This document shows, in pieces, positions 34,298 to 41,816 of a stretch of 64,000 nt of DNA. The stretch's first letter is position 1. Each line of letters opens with the position of its first letter. The DNA is from Lacinutrix sp. WUR7 (GTDB lineage Bacteria > Bacteroidota > Bacteroidia > Flavobacteriales > Flavobacteriaceae): the NCBI RefSeq assembly GCF_016864015.1, contig NZ_CP045067.1:2180001-2244000 (forward strand), given 5' to 3'. A program made the position numbers and the translations under genes. Under the pieces are notes generated by a model. It ran no database searches. It saw nothing but the letters and a program-made list of their open reading frames with translations, and was not told the origin of the DNA.

Positions 34298-35065
34298 CTA
34301 TTTGTTTAGTATGTTTTTCACAAAACTATCAATTTCATTAACTCCTTTATTAGTGAGGTGTTTTATAAATGCAGAACCAATAATCGCACCTTTTGCATGC
34401 GAAGTTGCTTGTGTAAAGGTTTCATTATTTGAAATTCCAAAACCAATAATTTGCGGATTATTAAGTTTCATATCTGCAATACGTTTAAAGTAACTCGTTT
34501 GTTCTTCTCCAAAACCAGAGCTGCTTCCTGTTACACTTGCACTACTTACCATATAAATAAAACCATTGGAAATAGAATCTATAAAGTTAATACGTTCTAC
34601 AGAAGTTTGTGGTGTTATTAAAAACACATTTATTAATCCGTATTTTTCAAAAATAGCTTTGTAGTCGTCGTTATATACATCGACCGGTAAATCCGGAATT
34701 ATTAATCCGTCGATACCAACTTCTTGACATTTTTTACAGAAAGCCTCTACACCATATTGCAACATTGGGTTGAAGTATCCCATAATAATTAACGGAATAG
34801 AAACGGTTTTACGGATATCTTTTAACTGATTAAAAAGTACTTCGGTAGTCATGCCGTTTTTTAAAGCTTGTGTAGAACTCGCTTGAATAGTTGGTCCGTC
34901 TGCTAAAGGATCACTAAATGGTAATCCTATTTCTACCATGTCTACACCACTTTTTTCTAAGTTTTGTAGGATAGTTGCTGTATCTTCTAAACTAGGATAA
35001 CCTGCTGTGAAGTATATAGAAAGTAATTTCTTGTCTTCTTGTAATTTCTGATTGATTCTGTTCAT
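34298..35065 (-). CDS. trpA: tryptophan synthase alpha subunit
   Basis: 255 residues from the ATG at 35065. A longer frame to 35146 reads through a palindromic repeat and overlaps the GIY-YIG gene, so it is rejected. TrpA splits indole-glycerol phosphate into indole and glyceraldehyde-3-phosphate. Catalytic Glu in DMVEIGLPFSDP and Asp in PLADGPTIQ are present, as are LIIMGYFNPMLQYG, GLIIPDLPVD, and the phosphate loop FIYMVSSASVTGSSSGF with GFGISN. Last biosynthetic gene of the operon. It is separated from trpB by a GIY-YIG gene and two palindromes, which is unusual because trpB and trpA are normally adjacent. Confidence 0.95.
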   Translation of the reverse strand: MNRINQKLQEDKKLLSIYFTAGYPSLEDTATILQNLEKSGVDMVEIGLPFSDPLADGPTIQASSTQALKNGMTTEVLFNQLKDIRKTVSIPLIIMGYFNPMLQYGVEAFCKKCQEVGIDGLIIPDLPVDVYNDDYKAIFEKYGLINVFLITPQTSVERINFIDSISNGFIYMVSSASVTGSSSGFGEEQTSYFKRIADMKLNNPQIIGFGISNNETFTQATSHAKGAIIGSAFIKHLTNKGVNEIDSFVKNILNK

Positions 35066-35083
35066 TGAATGATATTTTTTTTC

Positions 35084-35103
35084 ATTTCCGCGAAGGCGGA
35101 AAT
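35084..35103 (+). repeat. dispersed palindromic repeat, copy b (left flank of GIY-YIG)
   Basis: ATTTCCGC-GAAG-GCGGAAAT, a perfect 8-bp stem with GAAG loop, preceded by TTTTTC and followed by CTTTT. The inverted counterpart is copy c at 35418-35437, on the other side of the GIY-YIG gene. Confidence 0.85.
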
Positions 35104-35118
35104 CTTTTAAATATTTGT

Positions 35119-35403
35119 TTATACTAAATCGGATAAGTCGTTCCAATCTGGATTCATATCATTTATCAAATTTTCTTTCCATTCCCGATTCCATTTCTTT
35201 ATTTGTCTTTCTCTTTTAATAGAATTGTTTACATATTTAGTAGTTTCAAAATAGACAAGTTTATCTACGTTGTATCTTCCTGTAAAAGTTTTTAAACTAT
35301 TGTTTTTATGCTGATTCAGTCTTATCTTTAATTGCTTAGATCGACCAACATATAAAACCGTATGGTTTTTATTAGTTAATATGTATACGTAATGTAAATC
35401 CAT
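35119..35403 (-). CDS. GIY-YIG nuclease-domain protein in the trp operon
   Basis: 94 residues, a single GIY-YIG domain of the URI/UvrC-N type: HYVYILTNKNHTVLYVGRS carries the two signature strands, Arg in LKIRLNQHK, and Glu in the SIKRERQIKKWNREWKENLI helix. All residues expected for catalysis look intact. Single-domain proteins of this kind are common in flavobacteria, often in several copies; their role is unclear (repair, or element mobility). It is read in the trp direction, 40 bases after trpB and 53 before trpA, and is framed by two inverted copies of the same palindrome. A second, broken family member lies at 44216-44461. It seems to be an insertion into the operon. Confidence 0.9.
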   Translation of the reverse strand: MDLHYVYILTNKNHTVLYVGRSKQLKIRLNQHKNNSLKTFTGRYNVDKLVYFETTKYVNNSIKRERQIKKWNREWKENLINDMNPDWNDLSDLV

Positions 35404-35417
35404 TTATAATTAATGAG

Positions 35418-35437
35418 ATTTCCGCCTTCGCGGAAAT
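35418..35437 (-). repeat. dispersed palindromic repeat, copy c (right flank of GIY-YIG, inverted)
   Basis: ATTTCCGC-CTTC-GCGGAAAT is the exact reverse complement of copy b, and the match extends several bases on each side (AGATTT...AAATGAAAAA against TTTTTCATTT...AAATCT). Lies between trpB and the GIY-YIG start. Confidence 0.85.
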
Positions 35438-35443
35438 GAAAAA

Positions 35444-36625
35444 CTAAAACTTAAAATAATCGATGTAATTCTGTAAATCCTTATCTCCACGACCAGATAA
35501 ACTCAGCACCACAATATCTTCTGGTTGAAACTTTTTCTGCTCGAAAACAGCAAGTGCGTGCGAGCTTTCAATAGCAGGAATGATACCTTCTAACTTACAT
35601 AATTGCAATCCGGCCTTCATCGCTTGATCGTCTGTAATCGCAATAAATTCTGCGCGACCAGTTTTATATAAATGGGCATGCATTGGTCCGACACCAGGAT
35701 AATCTAATCCTGCTGAAATGGAATATGGCTCTGTTATTTGTCCGTCGTTGGTTTGCATCAACAAGGTCTTACTACCATGTATAACACCTTCCTTTCCTAA
35801 TACCGAAGTTGCAGCACTTTCGCCAGAATCTACACCTAAACCGGCAGCTTCTACAGCTATTAGTTTGACGTCTGTGTCTTGTAAAAAGTGATAATATGCA
35901 CCAGCGGCATTACTTCCGCCACCAACACAAGCGACTACATAATCGGGTTGTGTTTTGCCTTCGTGTTCTTGTAATTGCCATTTAATTTCCTCGGAAACTA
36001 CAGATTGAAAACGAGCTACCATGTCTGGATATGGATGCGGACCAACAACACTTCCAATAATATAATGTGTGTCTACCGGATTGTTAATCCAATCGCGAAT
36101 AGCTTCGTTAGTTGCATCTTTAAGGGTTCTACTTCCTGATAATGCAGGAATAACCGTTGCGCCTAACATTTTCATTCTAGCAACGTTTGGTGCTTGTCTT
36201 GCAATGTCAATTTCTCCCATATACACAATACACTCTAAGCCCATTAATGCACAAACTGTTGCTGTGGCAACACCATGTTGTCCTGCTCCGGTTTCGGCAA
36301 TAATACGATGCTTGCCCAAACGTTGTGCCATTAGAATTTGCCCGATGGTATTGTTGATTTTATGCGCTCCGGTATGGTTTAAATCTTCGCGCTTTAGATA
36401 CACTTTCGTGTTGTATTTCTCAGAAAGACGTTTTGCAAAATAGAGCGGAGAAGGTCTACCAACATAATCTTTTAAAAGTTGGTCAAACTCTTTTATAAAG
36501 TCGGGTTCTGCCATCACTTTTAAATAGTTTTGACGTAACTCTTCTACATTAGGATACAGCATTTCTGGAATGTATGCACCACCAAATTCGCCGTAGTATC
36601 CTTTTTCGTTAATATTATAATTCAT
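35444..36625 (-). CDS. trpB: tryptophan synthase beta subunit
   Basis: 393 residues, the usual length. PLP enzyme that condenses indole with serine to tryptophan. The PLP lysine is in [15 protein letters not shown]. Also visible: [15 protein letters not shown] at the N-terminus, [64 protein letters not shown] and GVGPMHAHL with the late LSGRGDKDL phosphate site. It starts 20 bases after the trpF stop. The trpA partner is displaced by about 380 bases because of the GIY-YIG insertion. Confidence 0.97.
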
Positions 36626-36645
36626 GGTTTTTCAATATTCTATTC

Positions 36646-37281
36646 CTAACGGATATAGTTGTTAATAGCCAATTGGTGTTTAAATTCTTTTAGTTTACTA
36701 AGATCTTTTACACCTGGTAATTTTTCAAATTTGCTGTTTAAATCGAGAGTACAACATAAATCGGATTCTGGACGCTTTAAGAATAATAGTAAAGGTTCTA
36801 TTTCTTCAGGCCCAATTCCGCCACTCAAGAAGTATGGTTTTTTAGAAGGGTATTTTTTAAATACATTCCAGTTAAACGGATATCCATTTCCTCCTGGTTC
36901 TTTGCCTTTGGTATCGAAAAGGAAATATTTACAAACATCTTCATAAGGTTCTAAAACGCTAAAATCGAATTGATTCTTTACCGAAAATACTTTTATAACG
37001 AATACATCATATTCCTTTAACTGTTCGCAAAATTCTGGAGATTCATCGCCGTGTAATTGTACACCTTGTAAATCATATTGTTCAATTTTTTCTACAATAT
37101 AGTTGAGCGATGCATTTACAAAAACTCCAATTTTCTCAATGCTTTCTGGTAATTCAGGAATTTCGGTATTTAGGTATCGAGGTGATTTTTCATAAAATAT
37201 AAAACCTAGATAGTCTGGTTGTATTTCTGCAACATCTAAAATGTTGTTTTCGGATTTCATTCCGCATATTTTTAGTTTCAT
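36646..37281 (-). CDS. trpF: phosphoribosylanthranilate isomerase
   Basis: 211 residues. Converts phosphoribosylanthranilate to CdRP. The N-terminal KICGMKS with the catalytic Cys, LGFIFYEKSPRYL, GVFVNAS, GVQLHGDESPEFC, KVFSV, LFDTKGKEPGGNGYPFNW and YFLSGGIGPEEI with LDLNSKFEKLPGVKD at the end give the complete set of motifs. A TIM barrel of normal size. It lies between trpC and trpB. The 159-base spacer toward trpC contains two repeat elements. Confidence 0.95.
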   Translation of the reverse strand: MKLKICGMKSENNILDVAEIQPDYLGFIFYEKSPRYLNTEIPELPESIEKIGVFVNASLNYIVEKIEQYDLQGVQLHGDESPEFCEQLKEYDVFVIKVFSVKNQFDFSVLEPYEDVCKYFLFDTKGKEPGGNGYPFNWNVFKKYPSKKPYFLSGGIGPEEIEPLLLFLKRPESDLCCTLDLNSKFEKLPGVKDLSKLKEFKHQLAINNYIR

Positions 37282-37284
37282 TTT

Positions 37285-37304
37285 ATTCTCGCGAAAGCGG
37301 GAAT
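37285..37304 (+). repeat. dispersed palindromic repeat, copy d
   Basis: ATTCTCGC-GAAA-GCGGGAAT forms an 8-bp stem with one T-G pair. It is the same family as copies a, b, c and e, and sits directly before the trpF start codon on the operon side. Confidence 0.8.
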
Positions 37305-37393
37305 CTCACCACGCTTCTTAATTAATTTGATTATTACTTTTTTTAATATATTTTTTGTCTTGGACAAATGGTATCATTTCTTGATACATTTTG

Positions 37394-37440
37394 GCTTCTT
37401 GATACAATTCCGATAAAAACCTAAATCACTCGAAGAGACA
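37394..37440. repeat. partial copy R3 of the ~100-bp long-hairpin repeat
   Basis: GCTTCTTGATACAATTC followed by AAATCACTCGAAGAGACA matches the right half of repeats R1 (38270-38372) and R2 (39448-39548). It abuts the trpC stop codon. The left half is degenerate or missing (possible GTATCATTTCTTGATAC relic at about 37371-37387). Confidence 0.6.
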
Positions 37441-38223
37441 TTACTTTAATTCTTCAATAAATTGTTTTGCGCTTTCGCCAGCGTTTTCTGTTTTCATAAA
37501 GTTTTCTCCAATTAAGAATCCTTTATAGCCATAAGGTTGTAACTCTTTGATGGCTGCTACAGAGCTAATTCCGCTTTCAGATACTTTTACAAAATCGTTA
37601 GGTATTAATGCACTTAGTTTTTTACTAGTTTCTAAGCTGACTTCAAACGTTTTTAAATTTCTATTATTAACACCTAACATATCTAGGCTAGGCATAATAG
37701 ATTTGTGTAATTCCTCTTCATTGTGAACCTCTAAAAGCACGTCTAAAGATACGCTTTTTGCAAATTCTGAAAACTGCTTAATTTCTTCTCTGGTGAGAAT
37801 GGCTGCTATTAATAAAATTACATCTGCGCCATACGCTTTAGCTTCCAGAATTTGATAGGTGTCTATGATGAATTCTTTACGAAGCAAAGGTAAATTACAA
37901 CTTGCTCTTGCGGTAAGTAAATCGTCTAAAGAACCTCCAAAGTATTTACCATCGGTTAAAACAGACATGCCGCAAACTCCTGCATCTTCATATCCTTGTG
38001 CAACATCAAAAACGTTTAAATCGTGATTGATGACTTGTTTGGATGGCGAACGACGCTTGTGTTCTGCTATAATTCCGGTAGTGCTATTTCTTAAGTTTTT
38101 TGCTAAGGAAATGGTTTGTCTTTCAAACAAAATAGATTGCTCTAATTGTTTGGTAGGAATTAGTTGCTTGCGAAGGTTAACTTCGATGCGTTTATCTTTT
38201 ACTATTTTGGTTAATATATCCAT
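37441..38223 (-). CDS. trpC: indole-3-glycerol phosphate synthase
   Basis: 260 residues. Closes CdRP to indole-glycerol phosphate with loss of CO2. Motifs: IIAEHKRRSPSKQVI with the catalytic Lys/Glu region, DAGVCGMSVLTDGKYFGGSL, LPLLRKEFIIDTYQI, GADVILLIAAIL, LLEVHNEEEL, LGVNNRNLKTFEV, SESGISS and the final GFLIGENFM. Length normal for a single-function enzyme (not fused to trpF). The spacers on both sides carry repeats: R1 upstream and R3 plus palindrome d downstream. Confidence 0.96.
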   Translation of the reverse strand: MDILTKIVKDKRIEVNLRKQLIPTKQLEQSILFERQTISLAKNLRNSTTGIIAEHKRRSPSKQVINHDLNVFDVAQGYEDAGVCGMSVLTDGKYFGGSLDDLLTARASCNLPLLRKEFIIDTYQILEAKAYGADVILLIAAILTREEIKQFSEFAKSVSLDVLLEVHNEEELHKSIMPSLDMLGVNNRNLKTFEVSLETSKKLSALIPNDFVKVSESGISSVAAIKELQPYGYKGFLIGENFMKTENAGESAKQFIEELK

Positions 38224-38269
38224 ATTTTTTTCCCATAAAAATGGGAATTTATTTTATTATACTGTATTT

Positions 38270-38372
38270 CGTCAGTTCGAGTGATTTCGATTTTTTTTAT
38301 CGAAATTGTATCGAGAACATATTATCTTCTCGATACAATTTGTTCGTACCTCTCAAATTACTCGAAGTGACA
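38270..38372. repeat. long-hairpin repeat R1 between trpD and trpC
   Basis: About 103 bp. The outer arms TTCGAGTGATTT and AAATTACTCGAA pair, and inner arms ATTGTATCGAGAA (38305-38317) and TTCTCGATACAAT (38327-38339) pair perfectly. The ends read GTCAG and GTGAC. The same layout is seen in R2, with a partial copy R3. It looks like a non-coding MITE- or REP-type element. Confidence 0.82.
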
Positions 38373-38383
38373 TTTAAACTTAC

Positions 38384-39376
38384 CTATTTACTCAATGCAA
38401 CCAATGCATCCAAACTCGCTTTTGCTTTTCCGCTTAGTAGTGATTCTTTTGCTAGTTCAAATCCGGTTTGATGATCTATTTGTTTTACCGTCGCAATTGC
38501 TAATCCAGCATTGGCGCAAACCACATTATTTTGTGCTTCGGTTCCTTTTCCTTTTATAACATTTAAAAATATTTTTGCAGAAGACTTTACGGTATCGCCA
38601 CCAAAAATATCACTTTGACTAATTTGTATTACGTTTAAGTCTTTTGGCGTTAACATGCTTTCTGAGGTTTTGGAAATAATTTTAGTATTCCCAGTTAATG
38701 AAATCTCATCATAGCCATCTAATGCATGTACAATGTTATAATTGGTGTCTGTTTCCTGATATAAATAGCCGTAAATACGTTGTAATTCTAAATTGAAAAC
38801 ACCAACTAATTGGTTTTTAGGAAACGAAGGATTTACCATTGGTCCTAACATATTAAAAAAGGTTTTCACGCCTAGTTCTTTACGGATTGGTGCCACATTT
38901 TTCATGGCAGGATGGAATAATGGTGCATGTAAAACACATATTCCTGCTGTTTCAATAGAATGTTTTAAAAAATCTTCTTGGTTTGAGAATTTTATACCTA
39001 AAGCTTCCATTACGTTTGAAGATCCTGAAGCCGAAGATACACCGTAATTACCATGTTTAGCAACATGTACGCCAGCTCCAGCAGTTACAAAGGATGCTAG
39101 TGTAGAAATGTTGAAGGTGTTTTTTCCGTCTCCACCAGTTCCGCATAAATCAATGGCATTATAATCGGATAAGTTTACAGGAATACACAACTCAAGTAAT
39201 GCATCTCTAAATCCTTTTAATTCTTCGGTGGTAATGCTTCGCATCATGTACACCGTTAAGAAAGATGCAATCTGACTTTGGTTATAATCGCCTTTTGATA
39301 TATTTACTAAAACCTGTTTCGCCTCTTCTGTAGAGATGTTTTCGTGGTTTATTAGTCTGTTTAATATTTGTTTCAT
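38384..39376 (-). CDS. trpD: anthranilate phosphoribosyltransferase
   Basis: 330 residues from the ATG at 39376. The frame opens seven codons earlier (39397), but that ATG lies inside palindrome e, so the inner start is preferred. Transfers phosphoribosyl from PRPP to anthranilate. Glycine-rich PRPP loop DLCGTGGDGKNTFNIST, KHGNYGVSSASGSSNVMEALG, PLFHPAMKNVAPIRKELGVKTFFNMLGPMVNP and DEISLTGNTKI are all intact. Stand-alone trpD, not fused to trpG. The upstream spacer to trpG is 241 bases because of repeats R2 and e. Confidence 0.95.
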   Translation of the reverse strand: MKQILNRLINHENISTEEAKQVLVNISKGDYNQSQIASFLTVYMMRSITTEELKGFRDALLELCIPVNLSDYNAIDLCGTGGDGKNTFNISTLASFVTAGAGVHVAKHGNYGVSSASGSSNVMEALGIKFSNQEDFLKHSIETAGICVLHAPLFHPAMKNVAPIRKELGVKTFFNMLGPMVNPSFPKNQLVGVFNLELQRIYGYLYQETDTNYNIVHALDGYDEISLTGNTKIISKTSESMLTPKDLNVIQISQSDIFGGDTVKSSAKIFLNVIKGKGTEAQNNVVCANAGLAIATVKQIDHQTGFELAKESLLSGKAKASLDALVALSK

Positions 39377-39395
39377 TGATAAATTTTTATTTATC

Positions 39396-39415
39396 ATTTC
39401 CGCGAAAGCGGAAAT
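39396..39415 (+). repeat. dispersed palindromic repeat, copy e
   Basis: ATTTCCGC-GAAA-GCGGAAAT, perfect 8-bp stem, followed by CTTTTAAAT as in copy b. Located right before the trpD start codon. Confidence 0.85.
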
Positions 39416-39447
39416 CTTTTAAATGGATCTTTTGTTATTTTTTTTTC

Positions 39448-39548
39448 GTCCGTTCGAGTGATTTCAGTTTTTCATTGCAATGGTATAGAGAACTAATAAA
39501 GCTTCTCGATACTATTTTTTCATGCTTCAAAAATCACTCGAAGTGACA
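39448..39548. repeat. long-hairpin repeat R2 between trpG and trpD
   Basis: About 101 bp. The outer arms TTCGAGTGATTT and AAATCACTCGAA pair exactly, and inner arms GTATAGAGAA and TTCTCGATAC pair with one mismatch. The ends GTCCG and GTGACA match R1. It lies about 30 bases from palindrome e. Confidence 0.82.
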
Positions 39549-39617
39549 CCTTATCTTCCTTTTTATATTCAAGATTCATTGGAGTAAGTACTGCTTACTG
39601 CAACTGCATACTGAACA

Positions 39618-40187
39618 CTAGTTTTTAACCCAATTCTCTAATATCTGTTTTCCGTTAGGTGTTAAAACCGATTCTGGATGGTATTGTACACCGCGAACAT
39701 CATAAAATTTATGACGTAGCGACATTATTTGTCCGTTTTCATCTAAAGAAGTCGCTTCTAATTCTTCAGGTAAATTAGGATCTACAACCCAAGAATGGTA
39801 TCTACCAACGGGGAATGTTTTTTCTAATCCTTCAAATAAAGATTCGTCATCCACGGTTACTTTTATATTGGTAGCAACGCCGTGGTACACTTCTTCTAGG
39901 TTAATTATTTTTCCTCCAAAAACTTCTCCAATAGCTTGTTGTCCTAAACAAACACCTAAAATGCTTTTTGTTGGTGCGTATGTTTTTATGATCTGTTTTA
40001 ATAAACCTGCTTCCTCTGGAACTCCTGGACCTGGAGAAAGTACAATTTTATCAAAAGCATCTACTTCCTCTAAAGTCAGTTTGTCGTTTCTTTTTACGGT
40101 TACTTCACAATTTAAATCTTCTAAATAGTGCACTAAATTGTAGGTGAAGCTGTCGTAGTTGTCTATTACTAATACTTTTGTTTTCAT
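39618..40187 (-). CDS. trpG: anthranilate synthase glutamine amidotransferase subunit
   Basis: 189 residues. Provides ammonia from glutamine to TrpE. Class I amidotransferase: VLVIDNYDSFTYNLVHYLE, LSPGPGVPEEAG, catalytic Cys in LGVCLGQQAIGE, GRYHSWVVD, and catalytic His/Glu in YHPESVLTPNG. Length normal. The ATG overlaps the trpE stop by four bases (ATGA), a classic coupled pair. It is not fused to trpE or trpD. It could also serve folate synthesis (pabA), as single-copy TrpG often does. Confidence 0.96.
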   Translation of the reverse strand: MKTKVLVIDNYDSFTYNLVHYLEDLNCEVTVKRNDKLTLEEVDAFDKIVLSPGPGVPEEAGLLKQIIKTYAPTKSILGVCLGQQAIGEVFGGKIINLEEVYHGVATNIKVTVDDESLFEGLEKTFPVGRYHSWVVDPNLPEELEATSLDENGQIMSLRHKFYDVRGVQYHPESVLTPNGKQILENWVKN

Positions 40188-41590
40188 CGGTCAATTTTTT
40201 CTGCTATTTCTATAGCTTTTGTTAATGCACCTAATTTGTTATATACTTCTTGTAATTCGTTTTCTGGACTGGATTTGGAAACAATTCCGGCACCAGCTTG
40301 CCAATGTAATTGATGGTCTTTACTTAAAAAGGTTCGAATCATAATGGCATGATTAAAGTTACCTTCAAAATCCATAAAACCAATAGCTCCTCCATAAAAA
40401 GAACGACTCGTTTTTTCGTATTTTTCAATAAGTTGCATGGCTTTATGTTTTGGTGCGCCGCTTAAAGTTCCTGCAGGAAACGTATCTGCAACCACTTGCA
40501 TGGTAGAAACATTTTTGTGTTTTTCGCCAATCACCTTACTAACTAAATGAATGACATGGGAGAAAAATTGAACCTCTCTGTAGGTTTCTACTTTTACTTG
40601 GCTTCCGTTTCTGCTTAAATCGTTTCTAGCTAAATCCACTAGCATCACGTGTTCTGCATTTTCTTTATCGTCAACGGCAAGTTGTTTTGCTAATTCTGCA
40701 TCTTTTTCATCATTTCCAGTACGTTTAAAAGTACCAGCAATTGGATGAATTTCTGCTTTACCATTAGAAACTATTAATTGCGCTTCTGGCGAGCTTCCGA
40801 AAATCTTGAAATCGCCATAATCGAAATAAAATAAGTAAGGAGAAGGGTTTACGTTTCGTAAAGCACGATATACATTAAATTCATCCCCTTTAAAATCTTG
40901 TGAGAATTTTTTAGAAAGCACTAGTTGAAATACATCGCCTCGTGCACAGTGTTTTTTTGCTAATTCTACATGCGATTTATATTCTTCATCACTAAGATTA
41001 GAATGAATATCTCCATTTTTTGAAAATTTATACGATGCAAAATTCTTCGCTTTTATAAGCTGCAGTATTTCGTCTATATTATTTTCTGTATCATGACAAT
41101 GCGCAAAAATATAAGCTTCGTTTTTAAAGTGATTAATTGCTATGATGTTTTGATATACAGCATAATATATTTCTGGAATTTCTATAGAATTTTCTTTTTT
41201 TGAAATTTCTACATCCTCAAAATACTTAACAGCATCATAAGCAGTATATCCAAAAATACCATTATTAATAAATTTAAATTTCTCTTCTGAGTTTACTTTA
41301 AAACGTTGTGTGAATTTGTGAATTTCTTCGGTAACAGAAACGTTTTTGGTGTAGTTTTTTTTGAAACTTCCATCCGGAAAATGTTGTTCTATCTCATCGT
41401 TTTCGACTTTAATAGACGCAATAGGATTAAAACAGATATAGGAGAAACTATTATCGTTAGCATGATAATCACTACTTTCTAACAATATACTGTTAGGATA
41501 TTTATCTCTTATTTTAAGATAAATACTAACAGGAGTAATGGTATCTGCTAATATTTTTTTGTGATGTGTATAAAGACTGAATGTTTTCAT
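40184..41590 (-). CDS. trpE: anthranilate synthase component I
   Basis: 468 residues. Makes anthranilate from chorismate with TrpG. The N-terminal LLESSDYH element (residue 35 on) is the site that binds tryptophan for feedback inhibition, which favours trpE over pabB. The catalytic region is intact: NPSPYLFYFDYGDFKIFGSSPEAQ, IHPIAGTFKRTG, HVMLVDLARNDLSRNG, TFPAGTLSGAPKHKAMQLI and YGGAIGFMDFEGNFNHAIMIRTF, then the Mg-binding end with AGAGIVSKSSPENEL. First structural gene of the operon, preceded by a promoter, leader peptide and terminator. Confidence 0.96.
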   Translation of the reverse strand: MKTFSLYTHHKKILADTITPVSIYLKIRDKYPNSILLESSDYHANDNSFSYICFNPIASIKVENDEIEQHFPDGSFKKNYTKNVSVTEEIHKFTQRFKVNSEEKFKFINNGIFGYTAYDAVKYFEDVEISKKENSIEIPEIYYAVYQNIIAINHFKNEAYIFAHCHDTENNIDEILQLIKAKNFASYKFSKNGDIHSNLSDEEYKSHVELAKKHCARGDVFQLVLSKKFSQDFKGDEFNVYRALRNVNPSPYLFYFDYGDFKIFGSSPEAQLIVSNGKAEIHPIAGTFKRTGNDEKDAELAKQLAVDDKENAEHVMLVDLARNDLSRNGSQVKVETYREVQFFSHVIHLVSKVIGEKHKNVSTMQVVADTFPAGTLSGAPKHKAMQLIEKYEKTSRSFYGGAIGFMDFEGNFNHAIMIRTFLSKDHQLHWQAGAGIVSKSSPENELQEVYNKLGALTKAIEIAEKIDR

Positions 41591-41603: not shown

Positions 41604-41639
41604 TAAAAAAAGGCTTGTCGTGAATGACAAGCCTTTTTT
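41604..41639 (-). promoter_or_regulatory. trp attenuator: terminator hairpin just before trpE
   Basis: On the minus strand AAAAAAGGCTTGTC, loop ATTCAC, GACAAGCCTTTTTTT: a strong 14-bp stem with T7, ending 15 bases before the trpE ATG and after the Trp-rich leader. The loop and stem edge TTCACGA (41624-41618) is the exact complement of TCGTGAA (41679-41673) at the end of the leader peptide, which gives a ready-made antiterminator pairing. A terminator in this place, between promoter and first gene, is the mark of attenuation. Confidence 0.88.
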
Positions 41640-41668
41640 GATATTTTGGTTAAATATACGGTATAGCG

Positions 41669-41731
41669 TTAGTTCACGAAGATTGTTTTTCGAGAGTTCC
41701 ACCACCAAGTATTATTTAAAATTGTGCTCAA
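41669..41731 (-). CDS. trpL: trp leader peptide with three consecutive Trp codons
   Basis: 20 codons with start TTG at 41731-41729: MSTILNNTWWWNSRKTIFVN. The three TGG codons are at 41707-41699 and the TAA stop at 41671-41669. The frame has no ATG and a stop lies two codons upstream, so TTG is the only usual start codon available. The putative promoter ends 17 bases upstream and the terminator follows about 30 bases after the stop. Ribosome stalling at the Trp codons would leave the stop-proximal TCGTGAA free to pair with TTCACGA in the terminator. A longer frame over 41526-41708 in another register is not the leader. Confidence 0.78.
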   Translation of the reverse strand: MSTILNNTWWWNSRKTIFVN

Positions 41732-41748
41732 TTGTTATTAATTTAGGT

Positions 41749-41779
41749 CAAAGATATAAATCTAAATATAAACTACCAA
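41749..41779 (-). promoter_or_regulatory. trp operon promoter
   Basis: On the minus strand TTG (41779-41777), 20-base spacer, TATCTTTG (41756-41749): a match to TTG-N17-23-TAnnTTTG. Transcription would begin a few bases before the TTG start of the leader peptide, so the untranslated part is very short. Confidence 0.72.
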
Positions 41780-41784
41780 TGTTT

Positions 41785-41816
41785 TATAAAAAAAACTACC
41801 ATTTTCATGGTAGTTT
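41785..41816 (-). terminator. terminator upstream of the trp promoter (minus strand)
   Basis: On the minus strand AAACTACCAT, GAAA loop, ATGGTAGTTT followed by a run of eight T. No gene that it would terminate is seen to the right on the minus strand. It may insulate the trp promoter or end a transcript I cannot see. The string AACTACCA recurs at 41771-41778. Confidence 0.65.

Follow-up and report, generated by a model that had tools for sequence, protein, structure and literature searches.

Does the short stretch ahead of trpE in this genome hold a complete attenuator, by which the supply of tryptophan would decide over the trp operon, and has such a design been described before? An earlier note, made from the letters alone, had claimed a promoter, a Trp-rich leader peptide, a terminator and an antiterminator pairing at this place. 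In the window (the whole 64-kb stretch of DNA that was analysed), these elements were found on the minus strand: the promoter TTG-N20-TATCTTTG at 41779–41749, the 20-codon reading frame with TGG TGG TGG, the 14-bp hairpin followed by seven T upstream of trpE, and the exact complementarity of TCGTGAA (41679–41673) to TTCACGA (41624–41618). One detail needs correcting, as the T run is separated from the trpE ATG by 14 bases and not by 15. Comparison with relatives argues for the attenuation reading of the note, and we consider it very probable that transcription of the trp operon is attenuated here by a ribosome-mediated mechanism and that the locus belongs to the Bacteroid-trp RNA family. Its features are these:

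41779–41777 and 41756–41749, minus strand: predicted promoter, with TTG in the −33 region, a 20-nt gap and the −7 box TATCTTTG (from the sequence and the boxes of relatives)
41731–41669, minus strand: leader peptide ORF with a TTG start, 20 codons (MSTILNNTWWWNSRKTIFVN) and the stop TAA at 41671–41669
41707–41699, minus strand: three consecutive Trp codons (TGG)
41650–41719, minus strand: protector hairpin (1:2), from folding and the swap test; the Rfam model also has a hairpin here
41679–41673, minus strand: antiterminator strand (segment 2), TCGTGAA
41624–41618, minus strand: antiterminator partner TTCACGA, made up of the last five loop bases and the first two bases of the terminator 3' arm
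41639–41605, minus strand: intrinsic terminator (3:4) with a 14-bp stem (5' arm 41639–41626, 3' arm 41619–41606), a 6-nt loop (41625–41620) and a run of seven T (41611–41605)
41626–41751, minus strand: match to RF01692 (Bacteroid-trp), 61 bits at a gathering score of 49
41590–41588, minus strand: trpE ATG, 14 bases after the T run
40184–41590, minus strand: trpE (ORF and Pfam)
39618–40187, minus strand: trpG (ORF and Pfam)
38384–39397, minus strand: trpD (ORF and Pfam)
37441–38223, minus strand: trpC (ORF and Pfam)
36646–37281, minus strand: trpF (ORF and Pfam)
35444–36625, minus strand: trpB (ORF and Pfam)
35119–35403, minus strand: ORF of 94 aa with a GIY-YIG domain, between trpB and trpA (ORF and Pfam)
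34298–35146, minus strand: trpA as the listed ORF, its true start probably lying further in

According to Pfam searches of the listed ORFs, the genes follow the order trpEGDCFBA (34298–41590, minus strand), and the whole cluster would form one transcript. The elements ahead of it are confirmed as genuine and not a product of chance. TGGTGGTGG occurs once in the window, at the Trp run, where 0.09 occurrences are expected and eight of 100 shuffles contained at least one. Besides, the 148-nt leader reaches a folding energy of −34.2 kcal/mol (z −5.5), which none of 200 shuffles equalled.

Whether this exact design was already on record, the earlier note could not say. In outline it was, since the locus is a member of a catalogued family. 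In a scan with Rfam 15, the window matched RF01692 "Bacteroid-trp" over the full model (1–131) with 61 bits at a cut-off of 49; this match, the only one to RF01692 in the genome, ends 35 nt before the trpE ATG of trpEGDCFBA. Together with the promoter type, the Rfam matches point to a member of the Bacteroidetes. Bacteroid-trp is listed in Table 1 of Weinberg et al. 2010 (PMC2864571). For Flavobacterium psychrophilum, the element has been described as conserved 5' of the trp operon and likened to the E. coli leader (PMC6414381), and its transcriptome gave strong clues for leader-peptide attenuation ahead of amino-acid operons (PMC9723704). The window shares with RF01692 the whole-model match, the position before trpE and the Trp codons within a conserved hairpin. 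However, the Rfam model stops at the terminator 5' arm, which it leaves unpaired, and therefore lacks helices 2:3 and 3:4, whereas the window adds a closed terminator and an antiterminator pairing. For the latter we found no earlier description in the openly readable literature, and we do not claim priority. Our additions to the catalogued motif are modest. They comprise two pairings, antiterminator and protector, along with the tests made of them, the near-leaderless start and, from a related family, a tandem version. Elsewhere in the window, the plus strand carries a Flavo-1 RNA match at 1290–1429 (47.2 bits at a cut-off of 42), just behind a 5S rRNA gene.

The elements are retained by the relatives. 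Of 60 genomes from among the window's kin (own included), 42 had a TrpE match above 400 bits; the upstream region could be read in 41 of them, that of G003 being cut by a contig end. An in-frame Trp run and, as called by script, a terminator precede trpE in all 41, with three TGG in 37 genomes and two in the remaining four (G010, G026, G038, G050). What the earlier note had named as a refutation, relatives that retain trpE without a Trp run or a terminator, was thus met with in none of the 41 readable genomes (own included). Rfam under-detects the element, as RF01692 was matched (E ≤ 0.001) in 29 of the same 60 genomes (own included) as against the 41 that carry the parts. In a wider phylum sample, TrpE was found at E ≤ 1e-60 in 139 of 158 genomes, and we added 49 further upstream regions: all 15 new members of the window's family (by inference the Flavobacteriaceae), all 17 class members and 17 loci from other classes, the last being one per each of 17 families out of 104 loci. 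A stricter script, which required a run (two TGG, or TGG-N3-TGG), a start codon, a short ORF and a terminator together, passed 47 of 48 loci in the family (own included), 8/8 in the order, 16/17 in the class and 8/17 of the more distant ones, three of the latter passes (G108, G153, G204) being doubtful. Three TGG were present in 45, 6, 11 and 5 of these passing loci, respectively. The script missed G022 of the family, G066 and, among the distant loci, G161. By eye, each has its three Trp codons and fails only because its terminator is imperfect; the swap and folding tests do not include these loci.

Tandem Trp-run-plus-terminator units precede trpE in two of the three genomes searched from a related family within the order (G037:C26:123-267 (L122) and G052:C169:4845-5004 (L121)), each unit with three TGG and, by eye, a terminator of its own. 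In the window's family, a pattern search for two such runs in tandem hit nine of 100 genomes, with sequence starts that resemble coding sequence.

The pairing of TCGTGAA with TTCACGA, central to the earlier claim, withstood comparison: it covaries between families, and own partners beat swapped ones in the family and in order plus class. In 63 of the 71 family, order and class loci, the longest complementary segment begins 14–21 nt past the last Trp codon (19 nt in the case of the window's TCGTGAA). The partner within the family consists of the terminator loop and the opening bases of the 3' arm; several class members (G061, G091, G183) follow the textbook antiterminator and use the terminator 5' arm. 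A weaker second helix joins 41671–41665 to the terminator 5' arm in the window's nascent-chain fold. The family register leaves 89.2% of cells paired, as against 50% or less in slid versions. The family shares one antiterminator motif that varies little, both sides having changed in three of 316 cells (a number reached by none of 500 shuffles), and 203 of 500 shuffles equalled or exceeded its covariation score. Most of the covariation comes from between families, where the partners change to GTGAGA/TCTCAC (G008), GAGAAGC/GCTTCTC (G049, G050), GTGGCA/TGCCAC (G122), TGAATCGG/CCGATTCA (G107) and TGCCGGGT/ACCCGGCA (G095).

When antiterminator partners were swapped between loci, none of 20,000 permutations did as well as the native combinations in the family (n = 47; mean −12.6 kcal/mol for own and −11.8 for swapped partners) or in order plus class (n = 24; −14.9 and −11.5 kcal/mol), and 333 of 20,000 did so in other classes (n = 8). 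Controls with reversed hairpins gave p values of 1e-9 for the family, a weaker 0.018 for order plus class and a failing 0.16 for other classes; with reversed leaders, the values were 2e-9, 0.007 and 0.03. Single loci are less clear-cut. With shuffled leaders as the yardstick, z −1.5 was missed by 15 of 47 loci in the family, including the window's own (z −1.4), and by seven of 24 order-plus-class loci, and in G038 we saw no convincing antiterminator (5 bp, z −0.1).

The other two helices have their own marks of conservation. Across 46 family members (own included), the terminator stem is paired in 99.8% of cells (63% or less in slid versions), and seven of its 14 pairs have changed on both sides. 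The RNAalifold consensus of the 46 family members contains the terminator only, the protector hairpin being absent from it. In the window, the core of the protector pairs 41695–41694 and 41692–41689 with 41675–41674 and 41680–41677, which hides the antiterminator strand, and its outer helix takes in the Trp codons. We tested the protector by taking the first 13 nt after the Trp codons against the stretch 14–30 nt after them, which holds strand 2. None of 20,000 swaps was as good in the family or in order plus class, and 243 of 20,000 were in other classes, a weak result. The partners form series such as CTTACG/CGTGAG, TTTACG/CGTGAA and ATTACG/CGTGAT. All three helices come with conserved parts and with own-partner preference or covariation.

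We next consider how these helices compete. The nascent RNA was folded up to the terminator apex with the ribosome edge 7 nt past the Trp codons, with the edge past the stop, or with no ribosome, these edges being assumed. For the window, 11.5 leader-terminator pairs are expected when the ribosome stalls on the Trp codons, 0.2 when it sits at the stop and 0.03 without it. Stalling gave more pairs than the stop state in 47/47 family, 8/8 order, 15/16 class and 7/8 other loci, an outcome that owes something to the set-up, in which strand 2 is lost to the stop state. Shuffled leaders lowered the pairs of the stall state from 12.2 to 4.9 in the family and from 9.8 to 5.2 in the class, with 47/47 and 15/16 loci above their own shuffled mean; reversed leaders gave 7.0 and 8.3, by which control the class result is the weaker one. 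At equilibrium, the full-length terminator of the window prevails whatever the ribosome state (pair probability 0.92–0.97 across the three), and the switch must therefore be kinetic. The attenuation decision in E. coli is likewise a kinetic one.

Among other explanations, the one that survives best, improbable as we hold it to be, is that TCGTGA and TCACGA form a loop pseudoknot that stabilises the terminator and has no part in antitermination. As the family partner lies mostly in the terminator loop and includes few stem bases, terminator and pairing might indeed coexist. Yet, the second helix occupies the terminator 5' arm in the window's nascent-chain fold, and the 5' arm itself supplies the longest partner in the class-level relatives G061, G091 and G183. 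TCGTGA is also the strand that the protector hairpin hides, and a pro-terminator role would presumably give the wrong response to Trp.

Still less likely is another kind of Trp sensor. T-boxes, sites for TRAP-type proteins and riboswitches regulate trp genes in other phyla, which is what would recommend them here. At this locus, however, what is conserved are codons and helices that exclude one another, and RF01692 alone reaches the Rfam cut-off; T-boxes, other riboswitches and the enterobacterial leader were rejected, none of them doing so. A sub-threshold match to Thr_leader covers the terminator and little else. In line with the earlier statement that the sequence is unrelated to enterobacterial trpL, no such leader appears among the Rfam matches up to E 1.

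Returning to the attenuator, the locus would thus work like E. coli trpL, with no sequence relationship seen among the Rfam matches. Both have a short Trp-rich leader ORF, three mutually exclusive helices and a terminator before trpE; the window differs in its three Trp codons and in the main antiterminator helix of its family, which sits at the terminator apex and not at the 5' arm. Another point of comparison is Sinorhizobium meliloti, which belongs to a different phylum from the window's genome. Its trpL is leaderless, the translation of its leader peptide beginning at or close to the first RNA base (PMC7298713), and resembles the window in having the leader peptide start at or near the RNA 5' end. 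The window itself has a predicted untranslated leader of 13 nt, and 33 of 67 genomes one of 7 nt or less.

These lengths derive from the promoter boxes. By itself, the −7 box is not unusual, as the window contains 26 matches to TATNTTTG where 32 would be expected; it gains weight only through its position and through the TAnnTTTG boxes that precede the leader ORF in relatives. As the sigma-A box of F. psychrophilum spans −12 to −5 of the start site (PMC9723704), the first RNA base of the window is predicted at about 41744, some 13 nt ahead of the TTG. A promoter box was obtained for 68 of the 71 loci in family, order and class (exceptions: G037, G052, G203) and a start codon for 67 of these (exception: G107), which is ATG in 62 and TTG in five (G000, G001, G002, G004, G020). 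The start lies eight codons before the first Trp in 46 of the 67, and the window's TTG takes the place of the relatives' ATG at just this distance, in line with the earlier proposal of a TTG start near the 5' end. The distances from box to start fall into two groups, 4–11 nt (33/67) and 14–21 nt (30/67), and the four loci beyond (G009, G079, G130, G183) have a script-chosen box 26–35 nt before the start codon that may be wrong. A spacing of 4–11 nt predicts an untranslated leader of 0–7 nt and almost leaderless translation. Bacteria of this kind are described as lacking Shine-Dalgarno sequences (PMC9723704).

Given these relatives, there is hardly any room for the notion that the Trp run is a short ORF arisen by chance and that the terminator does no more than stop transcription coming from upstream: a single genome with a common −7 box would be compatible with it, but Trp run and terminator precede trpE in 41 of 41 readable genomes (own included; 47/48 in the family by the stricter script), on which ground chance was rejected, and in 46 of 67 loci the start stays eight codons ahead of the first Trp.

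Just 5' of the trp promoter lies a second terminator-like hairpin (41788–41816, minus strand), ACTACCAT-GAAA-ATGGTAGT followed by a T run. The gene next to it is divergent, and by eye a similar hairpin stands at the same place in the plus-strand relatives G011, G021 and G030. It may be the leftover of a changed neighbour.

For the attenuator, sequence and folding yield a Trp-codon ORF, an intrinsic terminator and mutually exclusive pairings, the pairings being weak in other classes. Helices 1:2, 2:3 and 3:4 together make up the classic attenuator scheme, for which we infer stalling, the order of events and the response to Trp as follows. RNA polymerase would begin about 13 nt 5' of the TTG, and a ribosome would take up the leader peptide at once. 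If charged tRNA-Trp is short, the ribosome would stall on the three Trp codons and cover part of the protector's 5' side, leaving TCGTGAA free to pair with TTCACGA in the apex of the terminator still to form. The weaker second helix would then enter the terminator 5' arm, so that the terminator could not nucleate and trpE would be transcribed. With plentiful Trp, the ribosome would reach the stop beside TCGTGAA and hide it, and the terminator would form. The same outcome is expected without translation, when the protector hairpin would hide TCGTGAA.

It is quite possible, if still tentative, that Bacteroid-trp is a complete three-helix attenuator throughout the class (probably Bacteroidia) and combines two unusual traits absent from the catalogued model. 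As the first of these, the antiterminator of the family would capture mainly the loop and apex of the terminator and block nucleation, instead of sequestering a whole arm. The second would be a nearly leaderless RNA whose start codon usually lies eight codons before the first Trp.

In summary, the element precedes trpE in nearly all sampled members of the family (47/48 by script) and is widespread in the class. Leaderless mRNAs make up 5.5% in F. psychrophilum (PMC9723704) and 5' UTRs below 10 nt about 3.7% in B. thetaiotaomicron (PMC7366714), and against these genome-wide figures the leader ORFs predicted to be near-leaderless (33/67) stand out. With the two added pairings, antiterminator and protector, what was a catalogued motif becomes a testable mechanism that makes predictions for compensatory mutations.
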